Source of the DNA: an uncultured Phycisphaerales bacterium
GTDB taxonomy: Bacteria; Planctomycetota; Phycisphaerae; Sedimentisphaerales; Anaerobacaceae
Direction of reading: 5' to 3'
Assembly: GCA_903857265.1 (NCBI GenBank)
Contig: CAIODZ010000010.1
Location: 1-64,000 of the forward strand
DNA length: 64,000 nucleotides
In this document: positions 9,461-51,430 of the stretch, piece by piece
Layout: the number at the start of each line of letters is the position of its first letter
Numbering within the stretch: the stretch's first letter is position 1
Made by a program: the position numbers and the translations under genes
The notes under the pieces: generated by a model
The model's database searches: none
What the model was told of the DNA's origin: nothing
Seen by the model: the letters and a program-made list of their open reading frames with translations, nothing else

Positions 9461-9955
9461 ATGCCGGTTATTATCGACGGACACAATCTGCTGTGGGCCA
9501 TTCAAAACCCCGATGAGGACGTATCCATAACCGATGTCGTGATGTGCCAGGCCCTCGATACATACTTCGGCATTACACGCGACAAAGCCGAAATCATCTT
9601 CGACGGCATAGGCCCGCCCGACAAAACAGGATTCAACAATTTAAGCAATCTGGAAATTACCTTCTCAGGCCGCAATACCGATTGCGACTCCATCATCGAA
9701 CAAAGAATACTCGACAGCACCGCTCCCGCGCACCTTACCATAGTCAGCACCGACCGCAAAATTCGAGATGCCGCTTCCGCGCGAAAAGCAACCTCCATCC
9801 AATCCGATGAATTCTGGGGCATGGTAACAAAACGGCTCAGTAAACAAAAGCGAGGCAAAGAGCCGGCCGCCAAACGCACGGGCTTGACCGAAAGTGAAAC
9901 CGAACTCTGGCTCAGGACCTTCGGTCTTGACCGCCAACCCCCGCGAACAAAATAA
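9461..9955 (+). CDS. YacP-like NYN domain protein (putative ribonuclease)
   Basis: The 164-residue protein begins MPVIIDGHNLLW and has IIFDGIGPP and IVSTDRKIRDAA, the spaced acidic residues of the PIN-like NYN fold found in YacP/Rae1-type proteins. Such proteins are thought to cut RNA, in Rae1 on the ribosome. The C-terminus is a basic stretch followed by a short TESETELWLRTFG helix. It starts 18 bases after pyrC, and its stop overlaps the histidine kinase start. The function is inferred from the fold only. Confidence 0.75.
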   Translation: MPVIIDGHNLLWAIQNPDEDVSITDVVMCQALDTYFGITRDKAEIIFDGIGPPDKTGFNNLSNLEITFSGRNTDCDSIIEQRILDSTAPAHLTIVSTDRKIRDAASARKATSIQSDEFWGMVTKRLSKQKRGKEPAAKRTGLTESETELWLRTFGLDRQPPRTK

Positions 9956-12390
9956 TGAACGATTCAGATAAAACCAAAGAACAGGTTATCCAAGAACTCG
10001 ACGGCCGAGATTCCGAGACCAGATACAAGGCGATATTCGAATCCGCGAGGGAAGGAATCATAGTCGGAATTGTTGAAACCAGGCGGTTTATGTACGTCAA
10101 TCCGGCTATCTGCAAAATGTTCGGCTATACCGCCGAAGAATTCACTCATCTGACTGTAAGCGATATACACCTCAAGGAACACTTGCAGTATGTGTCGGGA
10201 CAATTCGAAGCTCTTATGCGAAATGAAGTCGCATTTACTCAAAATATACCGTGTCTTCGCAAAAACGGAACCGTTTTCTACGCCGATATCAGCGCAACCC
10301 GCATCGTCATCAACAACAAGGATTGTTTTGTCGGTTTTTTCACCGACACTACCGAACGCAAACGCACCGAAGAGGCCCTGCGCGAAAGCGAACAAAAATA
10401 CCGCATGCTCGTTGAGCAATTGCCAGCTATCACTTATACCGCGTTGCTGGACGAGACCAGCACCACGCTCTATGTCAGTCCGCAGACACAGGAAATACTC
10501 GGCGTTTCGCCCGAAGAATACACAGCCGACCCCGACCTTTGGCAAAAAATAATACACCCGGATGACCACGACCGCGTTATAGCTGAAATAGCACACTCGC
10601 ATCAAACAGGCGAGCCGTTCAACTCCGAGTACCGTATGCTCGCAAAAGACGGGCGTATCGTCTGGGTGCGCGATAACGCGAAGATACTAAGAGACGACCG
10701 AGGCAAAGCCCTCTATCTGCAGGGTGTTATGTATGACATTACGGCCAGCAAACAAGCAGAGGAGGCCCTGCGGCGGTCCGAAGAAAAATTCAGAGGTATT
10801 GCCGAACGAAGCTCAGATATGATTTTTATGACCGACACCCGTGGTTTCATAACATACCTTTCGCCTGCCAGCGAAAGAATATTCGGTTACAAGCCGCAAG
10901 ATATGGCCGGTAAAAACTTCACAAATTTTCTGGTCGAATCTGAAATACCAAAAGCCGTTAAGAGATTCACCGAAAAACTACAAGGCAGAAAACTCGGTGT
11001 CCTCTGCCTCGAAGCCAAAAGGAAAGACGGCTCCCGCGTATTTATCGAACTAAGCTCGTCCCTCATAATACAGGACGGAAAAACCGCCGGGACACAGGGA
11101 ATCATAAAAGACGTAACTGAACGAAGAAAGGTCGAAGAGCAGCTTCAAAAGGCACACGAAGAGCTTGAAACAAGAGTAAAGAAAAGAACCGCCGAGCTGG
11201 CCAAAGCAGTTGAAACTTTACAAAAAGAAGTCGCCGAACGAAAACACGCCGAAGAATCACTCCGCAGCGCCGAAGCAAGATTCAGAACCATCTTCGAAAA
11301 TACAATCGTCGGACTCTACAGAACCACGCCCGGCGGGCAAATACTGCTTGCCAACCCCGCCCTCGTCAAAATGATGGGGTGTCGGTCTTTCAAAGCGCTG
11401 GCCAAATTTAACGTCGAAAAAAACGGCTATGACCCCTTAACCCCTCGCTCCATATTCAAAAAACTCATAAAAAAAGAAGGCAGGGTCATCGGTCTCGAGT
11501 CCGTCTGGCGCAGACTCGACGGCACAAAGCTTTTCGTTTCCGAAAGCGCGTTTGCTGTAAAAGACGCCAAAGGCAAAATTCTCTATTACGAAGGCACGGC
11601 CCAGGACATCACAAAACGAAAAGAGGCGGAAGAGAAACTCATGCTCTACCAGCAGCAGCTCCGCTCTCTCGCCTCGGAACTTTCGCTGGCCGAGGAACGG
11701 CTCAGAAGACGAATCGCCGCCGAGCTCCACGACCACATAGCCCAGAATCTCGCCATCTCTAAAATTAAACTCGAATCGCTGAAAGACGACGTCAAACCGG
11801 GCCTGGCTAAATCGCTCAAAGAGGTAACCAACCTAATCTCGCAGACCATCGATGCATCCAGGTCGCTTACTTTCGAAATAAGCCCGCCCGTTCTTTACGA
11901 GCTTGGTTTCGAGGCAGCCGTCGGCTGGTTAGTCAGGCAAACCAGGCAGCGATTCGGCCTGGATGTCGAATTCATAAACGACGAAAAACCAAAATCACTC
12001 AACGCTGATATCCGGGTGCTGCTGTTCCAGGCGGTGCGAGAGCTGCTGGTAAACGTAGTCAAGCACGCCAAAGCCAAAAAGGCAAAAGTTTACGCATGCG
12101 TAGTCGATGATAACATCCAGGTAACCGTAGAGGACGACGGCGTCGGCTTCGACACCACAACACTAAACCCCGCAAAGGATTTCACAAAAGGGGGTTTCGG
12201 ACTGTTTAATATCCGGGAACGACTTGACCAGATAGGCGGAAGTGTTATCATACAGTCAGGGCGAAAAAAAGGCACGCAAATCATCATGACTGCTCCAATA
12301 GAAAAACCAAAGAAACCAAGCATCCGTTTTTCAGGCGCCCGCCCTGAAAAAAACGGCCGGCGGCGGAAAAATAAAAAATTACCGGCGTAA
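9955..12390 (+). CDS. Multi-PAS sensor histidine kinase (NarX/HisKA_3 type)
   Basis: The 811-residue protein contains four PAS units (about residues 20-135, 145-270, 280-395 and 445-565), a coiled coil after the third (ELETRVKKRTAELAKAV), then a dimerisation box with the phospho-acceptor His in AAELHDHIAQNLAIS and a HATPase domain (ELLVNVVKHAKAK, EDDGVGFD, GGFGLFNIRERL). HDHIAQ is typical of kinases paired with NarL/FixJ regulators, and such a regulator lies 42 bases downstream. No signal peptide or membrane segment is seen, so it is probably cytoplasmic. The ligand is unknown. The ATG overlaps the previous stop by one base. The C-terminal 35 residues are Lys/Arg-rich. Confidence 0.93.
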   Translation: MNDSDKTKEQVIQELDGRDSETRYKAIFESAREGIIVGIVETRRFMYVNPAICKMFGYTAEEFTHLTVSDIHLKEHLQYVSGQFEALMRNEVAFTQNIPCLRKNGTVFYADISATRIVINNKDCFVGFFTDTTERKRTEEALRESEQKYRMLVEQLPAITYTALLDETSTTLYVSPQTQEILGVSPEEYTADPDLWQKIIHPDDHDRVIAEIAHSHQTGEPFNSEYRMLAKDGRIVWVRDNAKILRDDRGKALYLQGVMYDITASKQAEEALRRSEEKFRGIAERSSDMIFMTDTRGFITYLSPASERIFGYKPQDMAGKNFTNFLVESEIPKAVKRFTEKLQGRKLGVLCLEAKRKDGSRVFIELSSSLIIQDGKTAGTQGIIKDVTERRKVEEQLQKAHEELETRVKKRTAELAKAVETLQKEVAERKHAEESLRSAEARFRTIFENTIVGLYRTTPGGQILLANPALVKMMGCRSFKALAKFNVEKNGYDPLTPRSIFKKLIKKEGRVIGLESVWRRLDGTKLFVSESAFAVKDAKGKILYYEGTAQDITKRKEAEEKLMLYQQQLRSLASELSLAEERLRRRIAAELHDHIAQNLAISKIKLESLKDDVKPGLAKSLKEVTNLISQTIDASRSLTFEISPPVLYELGFEAAVGWLVRQTRQRFGLDVEFINDEKPKSLNADIRVLLFQAVRELLVNVVKHAKAKKAKVYACVVDDNIQVTVEDDGVGFDTTTLNPAKDFTKGGFGLFNIRERLDQIGGSVIIQSGRKKGTQIIMTAPIEKPKKPSIRFSGARPEKNGRRRKNKKLPA

Positions 12391-12432: not shown

Positions 12433-13086
12433 ATGAGCACAAGAATCTTGTTGGCAGATGACCACAAAATCACACGCCAGGGTCTCCGTTCACTGCTCGA
12501 AAAACAAAAGGATATGGAGGTTGTAGCCGAGGCGGATAATGGCCGGTCCGCTGTTCGGCTGGCCGCCGAGCTTGCCCCGGACATCGTAATTATGGACGTA
12601 ACTATGCCCGACCTTAACGGGATCGAAGCCACAAAGCAAATTCTCGCCAAATCGCCCGACATTAAAATTATCGCCCTTTCGATGCATTCCGACGCCCTTT
12701 TCGTAACAGAAATGCTCAAAAGCGGCGCAGCCGGATACCTGCTCAAGGATTGCGCCTTCGAGGAGCTTACAAGAGCTATACGAACCGTCGCCGACGACAA
12801 AACTTATCTCAGCCCCGCCATATCCGGCGTCGTCATCGAGGATTATCTCCATCGGCTTGCCACAACCGAGTTCACAGGCCCGGACATCCTCACTGACAGA
12901 GAAAAAGAGGTCGTCCAACTTATGGCGGAGGGTAATTCCACCAAGCAAATCGCCCTAAAACTGCATATTAGCGTCAAAACAGTCGAAACGCACCGCAGGC
13001 AGATAATGAGCAAGCTCGATATTCATAATGTCGCTGAACTGACCAAATACGCCATCCGCAAGGGTATCACCTCCCTCGAAGATTGA
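12433..13086 (+). CDS. NarL/FixJ-family response regulator
   Basis: The 217-residue protein has a receiver domain with acidic DDH near residue 9, the phospho-acceptor Asp in IVIMDVTMPDLNG and Lys in LLKDCAF, followed by a LuxR-type HTH (LTDREKEVVQLMAEG, then KTVETHRRQIMSKL). It is the likely partner of the preceding kinase. Target genes are not known. AGGGG lies about 10 bases before the ATG. It is the last gene before the candidate small RNA region. Confidence 0.94.
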   Translation: MSTRILLADDHKITRQGLRSLLEKQKDMEVVAEADNGRSAVRLAAELAPDIVIMDVTMPDLNGIEATKQILAKSPDIKIIALSMHSDALFVTEMLKSGAAGYLLKDCAFEELTRAIRTVADDKTYLSPAISGVVIEDYLHRLATTEFTGPDILTDREKEVVQLMAEGNSTKQIALKLHISVKTVETHRRQIMSKLDIHNVAELTKYAIRKGITSLED

Positions 13087-13157
13087 CCCAAAAACCCAAT
13101 CAGGTATTTTTACCATCAAAATCAGGGTTGCTCTGATATCAGTTTGCAATAAATCTG

Positions 13158-13166
13158 TGATATAAT
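13158..13166 (+). promoter_or_regulatory. Extended -10 promoter of the candidate small RNA
   Basis: TGATATAAT is a perfect extended -10 with TATAAT at 13161-13166. No good -35 lies 16-18 bases upstream, as is common for extended -10 promoters. It precedes a structured region ending in a terminator. Confidence 0.5.
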
Positions 13167-13172
13167 ACATTA

Positions 13173-13308
13173 TTACAATCAGATATTCTGACTGTTGCGG
13201 TCGTCGTATGGCAGCAATCAGTAACGATATAAGGAGTATCGCCGCGCGGCTCTTACAGGGCATTTTGGGTGTGGGTGTCCGTAGGACCCCAGTGATGCTC
13301 CTTTTTTT
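13173..13308 (+). ncRNA. Candidate small RNA, unknown family
   Basis: No open frame explains this segment of the 386-base gap between the response regulator and mltA. After the extended -10 there is a hairpin with an 11-bp stem (13188-13198 with 13211-13221, one mismatch, one wobble). A second long stem pairs AAGGAGUAUCGC (13231-13242) with GUGAUGCUCCUU (13292-13303) through two GU pairs, and encloses a self-complementary GCCGCGCGGC and a GGGUGUCC/GGACCCC hairpin. Eight T residues follow. It matches no riboswitch, SRP, 6S or tmRNA signature that I recognise. It might instead be a 3' structure of the upstream operon. Confidence 0.45.
13231..13308 (+). terminator. Intrinsic terminator closing the candidate small RNA
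   Basis: A 12-bp stem (AAGGAG...CTCCTT outer part) followed directly by TTTTTTTT. The stem loop is long (about 49 bases) and internally structured. Confidence 0.6.
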
Positions 13309-13472
13309 TGCGCATTTTCGCCATTCTTCGTACCCGACCAATACCATTAAAGATTCACTCCCTGCTTCGCCGACACACTAATTATAAGACCCTGATTTGT
13401 TAGTCGAATCCATCAAGTGCCGCTTGAAGGGCACGAAGGGGGGTCTGTTCGTTTATTCAAAGAAGGAATCGT

Positions 13473-14672
13473 ATGAAAACCAGGATATTGCTTTACGCCG
13501 TGTTAACCGCCATTATTCTTACAGCCGTCGGCTGCCAGAAACCTCTCGCAGTCGTCGCTCCCCAGTATGACAAACCCCTTGCCCCGGGCCAACTCGCCTT
13601 GCGAAAAATTACCAATCCCGCTGAAATCCCGGACTTCACCAGTGCCTGTAACAATCTGACCAATCTCTCCGCAGCCATTGATAATTCACTCGACTACATG
13701 AAAAAACCGCCGAGCAACCAATCTTATCCATACACAGACATCACCCACGAACAGGTCGTCAAATCCCTAACCGCCTTCAAAAACCTGCTCAAATCAGGTC
13801 TCACGGGCAGCCAGCTTAACGACGCTATCCGTCAGAAATTCGACGTTTATATGTCCGTCGGCTGCGATGACGCAGGAACAGTTCTTTTTACCGGATACTA
13901 CACCCCCATCTTCTCCGGCTCACCCGTTAAAACGGCACAATATCAATACCCCCTGTACAGCCAACCCAAGGACCTGGTCAAAGGCGACAAGGGGCAAATA
14001 CTCGGCAGAAAAGGCGCCGACGGCCAAATCACCCCGTACCCCACACGCGCTGAAATCGAAAATTCCAATATGCTCGCCGGTAACGAACTCGTCTGGCTCG
14101 ACGACCCCTTCAAGGTCTATATCGCCCACGTCCAGGGCTCAGCAGTCATTATTCGTATGCCTGACGGCCGGCTTGTAACTTATGGTTACACCGCCAACAA
14201 TGGCCACGAATATAAAAGCATCATCAAGCAGCTCATCAGCGAAGGGAAAATACCGGCTGACCGCGTAAGTTTGTCATCCCTTATGGATTTCTTCAAAGCC
14301 AACCCCTCATTGGTCCGCCAATACACCCAGATTAATCCCCGTTTCGTATTCTTCAGGCAGGCAGAACAAGGCACCCCACACGGCAGTTTGAATGAGCCGG
14401 TCACCGCCTACAGAAGCATCGCCACCGACAAATCCGTCTTCCCGCGTGCCGCCCTGACATTTTTCACAACAAATCTCCCCCGCCAGATAGGCAATACCAC
14501 CTATACCGACCCATTCACCGGCTTCGCACTCGACCAGGATACGGGCGGCGCTATCCGCGCGGCGGGCCGATGTGATATTTACCTCGGAATCGGCGATACG
14601 GCAGGCAACCTCGCAGGCCAAACATACCAGGAAGGCAAACTATACTACCTGTTTCTCAAGCCCGGTTATTGA
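13473..14672 (+). CDS. mltA: Membrane-bound lytic murein transglycosylase A (MltA)
   Basis: The 399-residue lipoprotein has a signal peptide with a lipobox ending TAVGC, so Cys21 would be lipidated. The MltA barrel contains FTGYYTPIFSGS and ELVWLDDPFKVYIAHVQGSA, and the C-terminal 3D domain has LDQDTGGAIRAAGRCDIYLG with the expected catalytic Asp and GIGDTAGNLAG. MltA cleaves peptidoglycan with formation of 1,6-anhydromuramic products at the outer membrane inner face. AGAAGGAA lies 7-14 bases before the ATG. It is monocistronic in appearance, with a promoter for the next operon just after it. Confidence 0.94.
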   Translation: MKTRILLYAVLTAIILTAVGCQKPLAVVAPQYDKPLAPGQLALRKITNPAEIPDFTSACNNLTNLSAAIDNSLDYMKKPPSNQSYPYTDITHEQVVKSLTAFKNLLKSGLTGSQLNDAIRQKFDVYMSVGCDDAGTVLFTGYYTPIFSGSPVKTAQYQYPLYSQPKDLVKGDKGQILGRKGADGQITPYPTRAEIENSNMLAGNELVWLDDPFKVYIAHVQGSAVIIRMPDGRLVTYGYTANNGHEYKSIIKQLISEGKIPADRVSLSSLMDFFKANPSLVRQYTQINPRFVFFRQAEQGTPHGSLNEPVTAYRSIATDKSVFPRAALTFFTTNLPRQIGNTTYTDPFTGFALDQDTGGAIRAAGRCDIYLGIGDTAGNLAGQTYQEGKLYYLFLKPGY

Positions 14673-50041: not shown

Positions 50042-51430
50042 CTAATGACCCTGTAGCCAGTCCTGAACAAAGAGAGCAAAGTCCGCGAGATTAACTGTAC
50101 CATCCCCGGTGGGCAAGGGAGCGATATCCACCAAAGGATTATTTTGGCGCCAGGAATTAGCGAGGACAGCAAAATCGAGGAAATCAACATCGCTGTCTGC
50201 GTCAAGGTCGCCGAGGAAATTATCGAAAAGGTATGCTGCGCCGGTGGATTTGTCGTTGTTAAAGTTGTTAGGTGCACCAATTATGATATGGCGACCTGAT
50301 AATGCGAGCGAGGAGCCGAACCTGTCGTTTGTATTGGCGTCGCCTGCCGCGAGCCGGTCGCTTTGAATCCAGTTTGTGTCCGTACAGACAAACTCGAAAA
50401 CCGACCCGGTCATATTGCTATTAACGAAATCGTAAGGACAACCCACAAGTATTGTGTCATTTTTTATGGCGACCGCGAAGCCGAAGTCGTCGCCGCCGCA
50501 GGGGTCATTGGCGTCAAACAGTTTTTGCCGCTCGACCCAGTTAGCGCCAGTTCGAGAAAAGACATAAGCAGCACCGGCGCTTGAAACGACATTGGTATCA
50601 CCCTCATACGCACCAATGACAGCCCAGTTTTCGTCGAGAGCAACGGAAAATCCGAAGTGATGAGACAGGCCGCCGTCGGATGCCCGCAGGATATTTTGTT
50701 CGAGCCACGTTGTGTCCTGTCGCTGATAAAGATAGGCAGAACCGATATCGGCGAGATCGGAATAGTCATCATTGGGCGCACCGATAATAATGATGTTGTT
50801 GTCGATTGCAACGCTGTAGCCGAAATGATCCCCTAACAGGGCATCCGATGCGGTAATCTTTTGCTGGAAAACCCAGTTTGAGCCGGCGAGGACAAAAACC
50901 GAGGCGCTGCCGGCATAGCTGTTGTCGCCGTAAGCACCTATGACGATGGTATTATTATCGATTGCGACGGAGCAGCCGGATTTGTCGTCGGCGGCAGCGT
51001 CGGGTGCGACAAGTTTTTGCTGCTGTGTCCAGACGCCACCCAAACGAGAGAAGACATAAGCGGAACCTTTGTTGTCGTCATAATAACTGCCCACAACAAT
51101 AGTATTTCCTTCGAGAGCGACCGACCGGCCGAATTTATCGCCGGCCGAACCGTCGGAAGGGACGAGCTTTTGTTTTTCAATCCACTGCGAGCCGGAAAGT
51201 TCATAAACATAAGCGGCACCGCAGTCACTGCCATTTGAGTCATTCTGATATGCCCCGGCCACCGCGGTATTGCCGTCGATAGCAACCGAAACGCCGAAAT
51301 TGTCACCGGCGTTGGCATCGGAAGGGAAAAATTTGGCCTTTTCGAGATGAGCGAGAGCTGAGCAGCTAAATACAATCTGAAGTAAAAACGCTGACACTAT
51401 GAGATACCTGGTTTTGGGTGTGGTAATCAT
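50042..51430 (-). CDS. Secreted FG-GAP seven-bladed propeller with dockerin-like module
   Basis: The 462-residue protein has a signal peptide (LIVSAFLLQIVFSCSALAHL) and seven repeats of about 50 residues built on [DG]xxFGxSVAIxxNxxxxGAPxD...GAAYVF, as in FG-GAP/integrin-alpha propellers; seven repeats make one closed propeller. The Asp-rich loops probably bind calcium. The C-terminal module DLDADSDVDFLDFAVLANSW ... GDGTVNLADFALFVQDWLQ is nearly the same as in the C25 protease, also at the DNA level. AAGGGG precedes the ATG. It lies 36 bases after addA on the same strand. The ligand is unknown. Confidence 0.85.
   Translation of the reverse strand: MITTPKTRYLIVSAFLLQIVFSCSALAHLEKAKFFPSDANAGDNFGVSVAIDGNTAVAGAYQNDSNGSDCGAAYVYELSGSQWIEKQKLVPSDGSAGDKFGRSVALEGNTIVVGSYYDDNKGSAYVFSRLGGVWTQQQKLVAPDAAADDKSGCSVAIDNNTIVIGAYGDNSYAGSASVFVLAGSNWVFQQKITASDALLGDHFGYSVAIDNNIIIIGAPNDDYSDLADIGSAYLYQRQDTTWLEQNILRASDGGLSHHFGFSVALDENWAVIGAYEGDTNVVSSAGAAYVFSRTGANWVERQKLFDANDPCGGDDFGFAVAIKNDTILVGCPYDFVNSNMTGSVFEFVCTDTNWIQSDRLAAGDANTNDRFGSSLALSGRHIIIGAPNNFNNDKSTGAAYLFDNFLGDLDADSDVDFLDFAVLANSWRQNNPLVDIAPLPTGDGTVNLADFALFVQDWLQGH

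Follow-up and report, generated by a model that had tools for sequence, protein, structure and literature searches.

What lies in the gap between the response regulator gene and mltA in the window, that is, in the whole 64,000-nucleotide stretch of planctomycete DNA analysed here, what would switch it on, and through which of its parts would it act? A first-pass annotation had placed a structured small RNA at positions 13141-13310; what it overlooked is the link to the two-component genes upstream, the tandem operator, and the siblings with an identical loop. The answer favoured here, with a probability of about 0.62, is that 13158-13309 would encode a trans-acting small RNA that is activated by the response regulator and acts, as a member of a sibling set, via a shared loop. 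It draws its support from genome comparison, which shows that the promoter is conserved, that the terminator hairpin covaries, and that a loop predicted to be exposed, GGGUGUGG, is invariant.

The Predicted RNA Gene and Its Fold

By direct reading of the sequence, 13158-13309 holds an extended -10 followed by two hairpins, one in the 5′ part and the other a long irregular terminator hairpin, and by a T run.

13158-13166, plus strand: extended -10 TGATATAAT, good -35 absent; a -10 lies at the matching place in relatives
13173..13309, plus strand: predicted small RNA of ~137 nt, its start placed from the -10
13191..13222, plus strand: variable 5′ hairpin domain, apparently missing in genome G003
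13231..13309, plus strand: conserved long terminator hairpin with T run (covariation in 14 genomes; models R1 and R2)
13263..13274, plus strand: apical loop UUUUGGGUGUGG with GGGUGUGG invariant in 14/14 orthologs and in the siblings; proposed active segment

Most of the signals named in the first-pass annotation were found again: the extended -10, the 12-bp closing stem with G·U pairs, and the eight terminal T (13302-13309) are all present, and the predicted length agrees with the anticipated transcript of about 135 bases. The 5′ hairpin that had been described as 11 bp long exists, albeit bulged and without a clean run of 11 bp. The multibranch structure proposed for the 3′ part was not recovered; this part folds as a single long irregular hairpin with internal loops, and its covariance model has 0 branch points. 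The fold of 13165-13310 has an energy of -50.5 kcal/mol versus -38.0 ± 3.65 kcal/mol in dinucleotide shuffles (z = -3.43), and one of 200 such shuffles was equally good. In the predicted ensemble the apical loop is exposed except for its last two G's.

A coding function had been denied for this stretch, and neither the ORFs nor the relatives reveal a conserved reading frame across the RNA. The sole long ORF is antisense (12955-13347, minus strand) and overlaps the regulator gene, and the 5′ part of the RNA differs in length and sequence among relatives. The suggested comparison with Rfam 15 (4227 families) returned no family, riboswitches included, that reached its gathering score in the window, and chance-level matches only at permissive settings; none of the orthologs or siblings matched a family within the RNA element. 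As is general for bacterial trans-acting small RNAs, a promoter of its own and an intrinsic terminator in an intergenic gap are combined with a structure and an exposed segment that are both conserved.

Conservation and Gene Order

A DNA search of 99 relatives detected the core of the element in three further genomes of the genus and in one of another genus. From these four sequences and that of the window, covariance model R1 was built, and its search revealed orthologs across one taxonomic family, with 14 genomes forming a clear top group. In the 14-ortholog alignment, 94.9% of the cells pair and both sides have changed in 16 of the 29 pairs, and none of the covariation measures was reached by shuffles (0/500) or by slid partners; the counts lean toward the model because the alignment was fitted to it, the both-sided-change measures being the robust ones. 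The covariance check that had been proposed thus showed the RNA to be kept in 14 genomes, with covarying pairs. While the stems have diverged widely, GGGUGUGG is found in the apical loop of every ortholog.

When a rebuilt model, R2, was run on 161 genomes of the order, some of them incomplete, the same 14 scored 61-87 bits and everything else at most 45 bits, and therefore the RNA seems to be confined to one family. The weak R2 matches (28-45 bits) are mostly members of a different RNA family.

The RNA gene lies directly behind the genes of a kinase and a regulator, on the same strand, in 13 of the 14 genomes; the two proteins are the presumed input and activator of the circuit.

9955..12390, plus strand: PAS-domain sensor kinase (HisKA_3, HATPase_c; Pfam), presumed circuit input
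12433..13086, plus strand: NarL/LuxR-type response regulator (Response_reg and GerE; Pfam), presumed activator of the RNA

The regulator orthologs directly upstream of the RNA share 72-94% identity. In the fourteenth genome, G003, the RNA is unlinked from the kinase genes, and the regulator ortholog sits on another contig; the RNA still precedes mltA. Five genomes (G016, G034, G008, G027, and G022) have a regulator ortholog at 72-76% identity and no detectable RNA, the last two at contig edges, which speaks against the favoured answer.

Could the element be a cis-acting leader or riboswitch of mltA? mltA is indeed the next gene on the same strand. Its ATG at 13473 is, however, located 163 bases past the T run, at which the transcript would end, and no riboswitch was matched. 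The downstream gene changes among genomes and is mltA only in the window's genus. Because of this synteny a link in cis is rejected as hardly credible, in agreement with the independence from mltA that had been claimed at the outset.

More distant NarL-type regulators are encoded in G006, G059, and G117 (loci L101, L103, and L107), each followed by a ATCAGGAATATCCTG-like palindrome. The sequences after these palindromes have no similarity to the window RNA, that of G117 being rich in GGA; perhaps they specify another RNA in the same circuit.

Predicted Control by the Two-Component System

Between the regulator gene and the -10 there are two operator-like boxes.

13099..13115, plus strand: distal operator-like box ATCAGGTATTTTTACCA, 22 bp upstream of the proximal box, in 14/14 genomes
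13121..13137, plus strand: proximal palindromic box ATCAGGGTTGCTCTGAT, consensus ATCAGGAATATCCYGAT, in 14/14 genomes

In all 14 genomes the boxes, approximately [AG]TCAGGTATTTYTACC and ATCAGGAATATCCYGAT, are 22 bp apart from start to start, and the proximal box ends 22-23 bp ahead of the -10. Its centre is near -42, the position of a class-II activator, and a good -35 is absent. The promoter of its own that had been ascribed to the RNA is thus conserved, together with a pair of operator-like sites whose spacing is fixed. The pattern ATCAGGN6CYGATA has one match in the window's own genome, at the proximal box; other genome matches of the box pattern were mostly within coding sequence among those inspected. 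Both boxes and their spacing are retained in G003, although the regulator gene is on another contig there. Since the boxes are kept in this genome and the 5′ domain seems to be missing, the minimal unit would consist of boxes, -10, and terminator hairpin. From position and co-inheritance, the regulator is taken to bind the boxes.

The following route is proposed. The PAS kinase would drive phosphorylation of the NarL-type regulator, and the phosphorylated regulator would bind the two boxes (13099-13137), two helical turns apart. From the class-II position, it would then activate the extended -10 promoter, which is devoid of a -35.

It is improbable that the hairpin does no more than terminate the kinase-regulator operon, or that it is what remains of the 3′ UTR of that operon. 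Its location downstream of the regulator gene, with a shared strand and a terminal T run, would suit such a role. What this does not account for is a -10 and a double box of its own conserved at fixed spacing, a loop that stays fixed while stems change, the persistence of RNA and boxes away from the regulator in G003, and sibling hairpins with their own promoters elsewhere. Within the favoured reading, the hairpin may additionally end the kinase-regulator mRNA.

Sibling RNAs with the Same Loop

The siblings were found via the exact 12-mer complementary to the loop, which had originally been searched for targets. It gave opposite-strand hairpins with different stems, an identical loop, and a T run; the loop identity is partly by construction, since the siblings were gathered by loop. 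At least four such RNAs are encoded in the window's own genome, on contigs C10 (the window RNA), C22 (position 78120), C23 (7056), and C11 (44876), and sibling orthologs exist in the genus. A further loop match in this genome, in a tRNA-like T arm, was taken as coincidence. Several siblings have consensus-like promoters as judged by eye, and the box pattern occurs in none of those of the own genome. Among 89 genomes, the loop-plus-T-run pattern was detected almost only where the regulator-linked RNA also occurs.

Several copies per genome might also suggest a repeat or mobile element that has spread without a function of its own, the more so as G002 contains other hairpin repeats whose loop (TTTTTGTGTGTGGGG) is similar. 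This explanation is very improbable in view of the differing stems of the four RNA types of the own genome and of copies at orthologous places in G000, G001, and G002, for example beside the same ORF, in which the stems have diverged and the loop is unchanged. The C22-type loci of G000 and G001 have different stems and an unchanged loop.

Two kinds of other hairpins were seen. Repeated hairpins of the form TTGCCCCT..TTTTTGTGTGTGGGGG..AGGGGCAA (L216, L225, L259, L262, L264, and L265) have several copies in G002, and one was seen in the own genome; their loop is similar to GGGUGUGG, not identical. On contig C7 of G032, a hairpin with the loop UUUGGGUGUGGG comes ~130 bases after the RNase P RNA gene (L050).

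Candidate Targets and Mode of Action

The ~137-nt RNA would act through the G-rich loop of its terminator, and the siblings would do so through the shared loop from ordinary promoters. That the loop acts in trans in one way or another, by pairing or by binding a protein, is quite probable from the comparison of genomes. The likeliest action would be pairing with C-rich sites (CCACACCC) at the translation starts of mRNAs for secreted-type proteins, which would lower translation without Hfq. The best duplex among 703 sampled start windows, from 864 kb or 31% of one genome, is at the following site.

51413..51424, minus strand: candidate target site ACCACACCCAAA in codons 3-6 of the FG-GAP gene 50042-51430 (minus strand)

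The FG-GAP protein has a weak dockerin-like end, and the site is kept in its G001 ortholog. A GLUG protein of G001 and G002 starts with ATG-(TTC)-ACCACACCCAAACCCACACC, and the 5′ UTR for a CotH/LTD protein contains sites of the CCACATCC type in G000, G001, and G002. All three candidates look exported by their N-termini; as targets, their start regions are suggestive only. In the start windows overall, complementarity was not enriched versus shuffled loops (6 versus 3.9 at -16 kcal/mol). Base pairing of the loop with these candidates is a tentative lead, at somewhat less than even odds.

Other sites were discarded. The exact 12-mer complements at RecA and at an MscS-like gene are antisense to the genes; an extra ACCACACCCAAA match on contig C8 of G001 and a short match on C42 of G000 do not coincide with convincing gene starts. 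That the loop pairs in cis was also dismissed, as CCACACCC is not on the plus strand of the window.

The loop might instead be a binding site for a protein, with the RNAs titrating an RNA-binding protein and the two-component system setting the dose. One loop on many different stems and the weak target statistics are consistent with this, as are a circuit layout resembling that of BarA-UvrY/CsrB (PMC4682653) and the presence of CsrA, which is encoded in 15 of 15 genomes. Conserved sites at start codons, in contrast, point to pairing, and no candidate protein other than CsrA is known. CsrA binds GGA in loops. The CsrB and RsmZ RNAs are recognized by several GGA motifs in hairpin loops, whereas the window RNA contains only two GGA, both in stems, so that the role of a CsrA sponge was rejected despite the presence of CsrA. 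Titration of a protein is, on this evidence, rather unlikely.

For Hfq, 0 of 12 genomes gave a hit, the named controls being detected. Pairing, as preferred here, would thus have to do without it, and how small RNAs work in these genomes becomes directly testable. It is possible, if on the doubtful side, that an Hfq-independent network exists in which small RNAs of unrelated bodies present one G-rich loop at the terminator tip. One of them would be the dedicated output of a two-component system and be inherited along with it, and together they would control the translation of secreted surface proteins or titrate a loop-binding protein.

Relation to Known Systems

Two proteobacterial circuits combine a NarL-type regulator with small RNAs. 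The core of the RcsAB box is of the AGGAATAT type, resembling the boxes found here, and RprA uses Hfq, which is missing here. The window regulator reaches 87 bits versus 235 for RcsB, and the window RNA is unrelated to RprA by Rfam; RcsB-RprA of Escherichia coli resembles the locus in that a NarL-type regulator has a small RNA dedicated to it (PMC6298664). In the BarA-UvrY and GacS-GacA systems with CsrB/CsrC and RsmY/RsmZ, the likeness consists in a NarL-type regulator and a palindromic box, along with CsrA being present here: UvrY activates a small RNA via such a box upstream of its promoter (PMC4682653). The UvrY site is, however, an 18-bp repeat far upstream, at ~-183, from which the window boxes differ in sequence and position. 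Unlike in those systems, the RNA gene here adjoins the kinase and regulator genes, and an array of GGA loops is absent. Against the NCBIfam equivalog model for UvrY/SirA/GacA, with its cut-off of 280 bits, the window regulator scores 168 bits.

Outside Proteobacteria, a likeness is found in the FopS RNAs of Bacteroides thetaiotaomicron, multi-copy small RNAs that have a terminator and one short conserved segment in common and the targets of which are translation starts of surface proteins (PMC11697453). The FopS seed is single-stranded and at the 5′ end, whereas the shared segment here is the apical loop of the terminator; moreover, the bodies differ here and one sibling is coupled to a two-component system. 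Because Rfam is negative, the regulator is below the cut-offs, a GGA array and Hfq are lacking, and the segment is in the terminator loop, the window RNA belongs to none of the UvrY/CsrB, RcsB/RprA, and FopS systems and would be a new small RNA family of a familiar kind.

This part of the planctomycete phylum has hardly been explored for regulatory RNAs, and for the whole PVC group 8 have been counted (review PMC9029176). Most of the present circuit, including sensor, regulator, operator, RNA, shared loop, and siblings, could be deduced by comparison alone. In several families of the order (L046, L047, L048, L052, and L201-L212), a second RNA family was observed that likewise has no match in Rfam. 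It has a terminator hairpin, GGGAGCGUCGGCUG..CGGCGCUCCC-T run, and a segment upstream complements the apical part of this hairpin (UUGGCG/CGCCAA, UGUGGUAG/CUACCACA, UGAGGUGA/UCACCUCA, and UGUCUACAG/CUGUAGACA). This long-range pairing differs between genera yet stays complementary, as in a pseudoknot or a switch.
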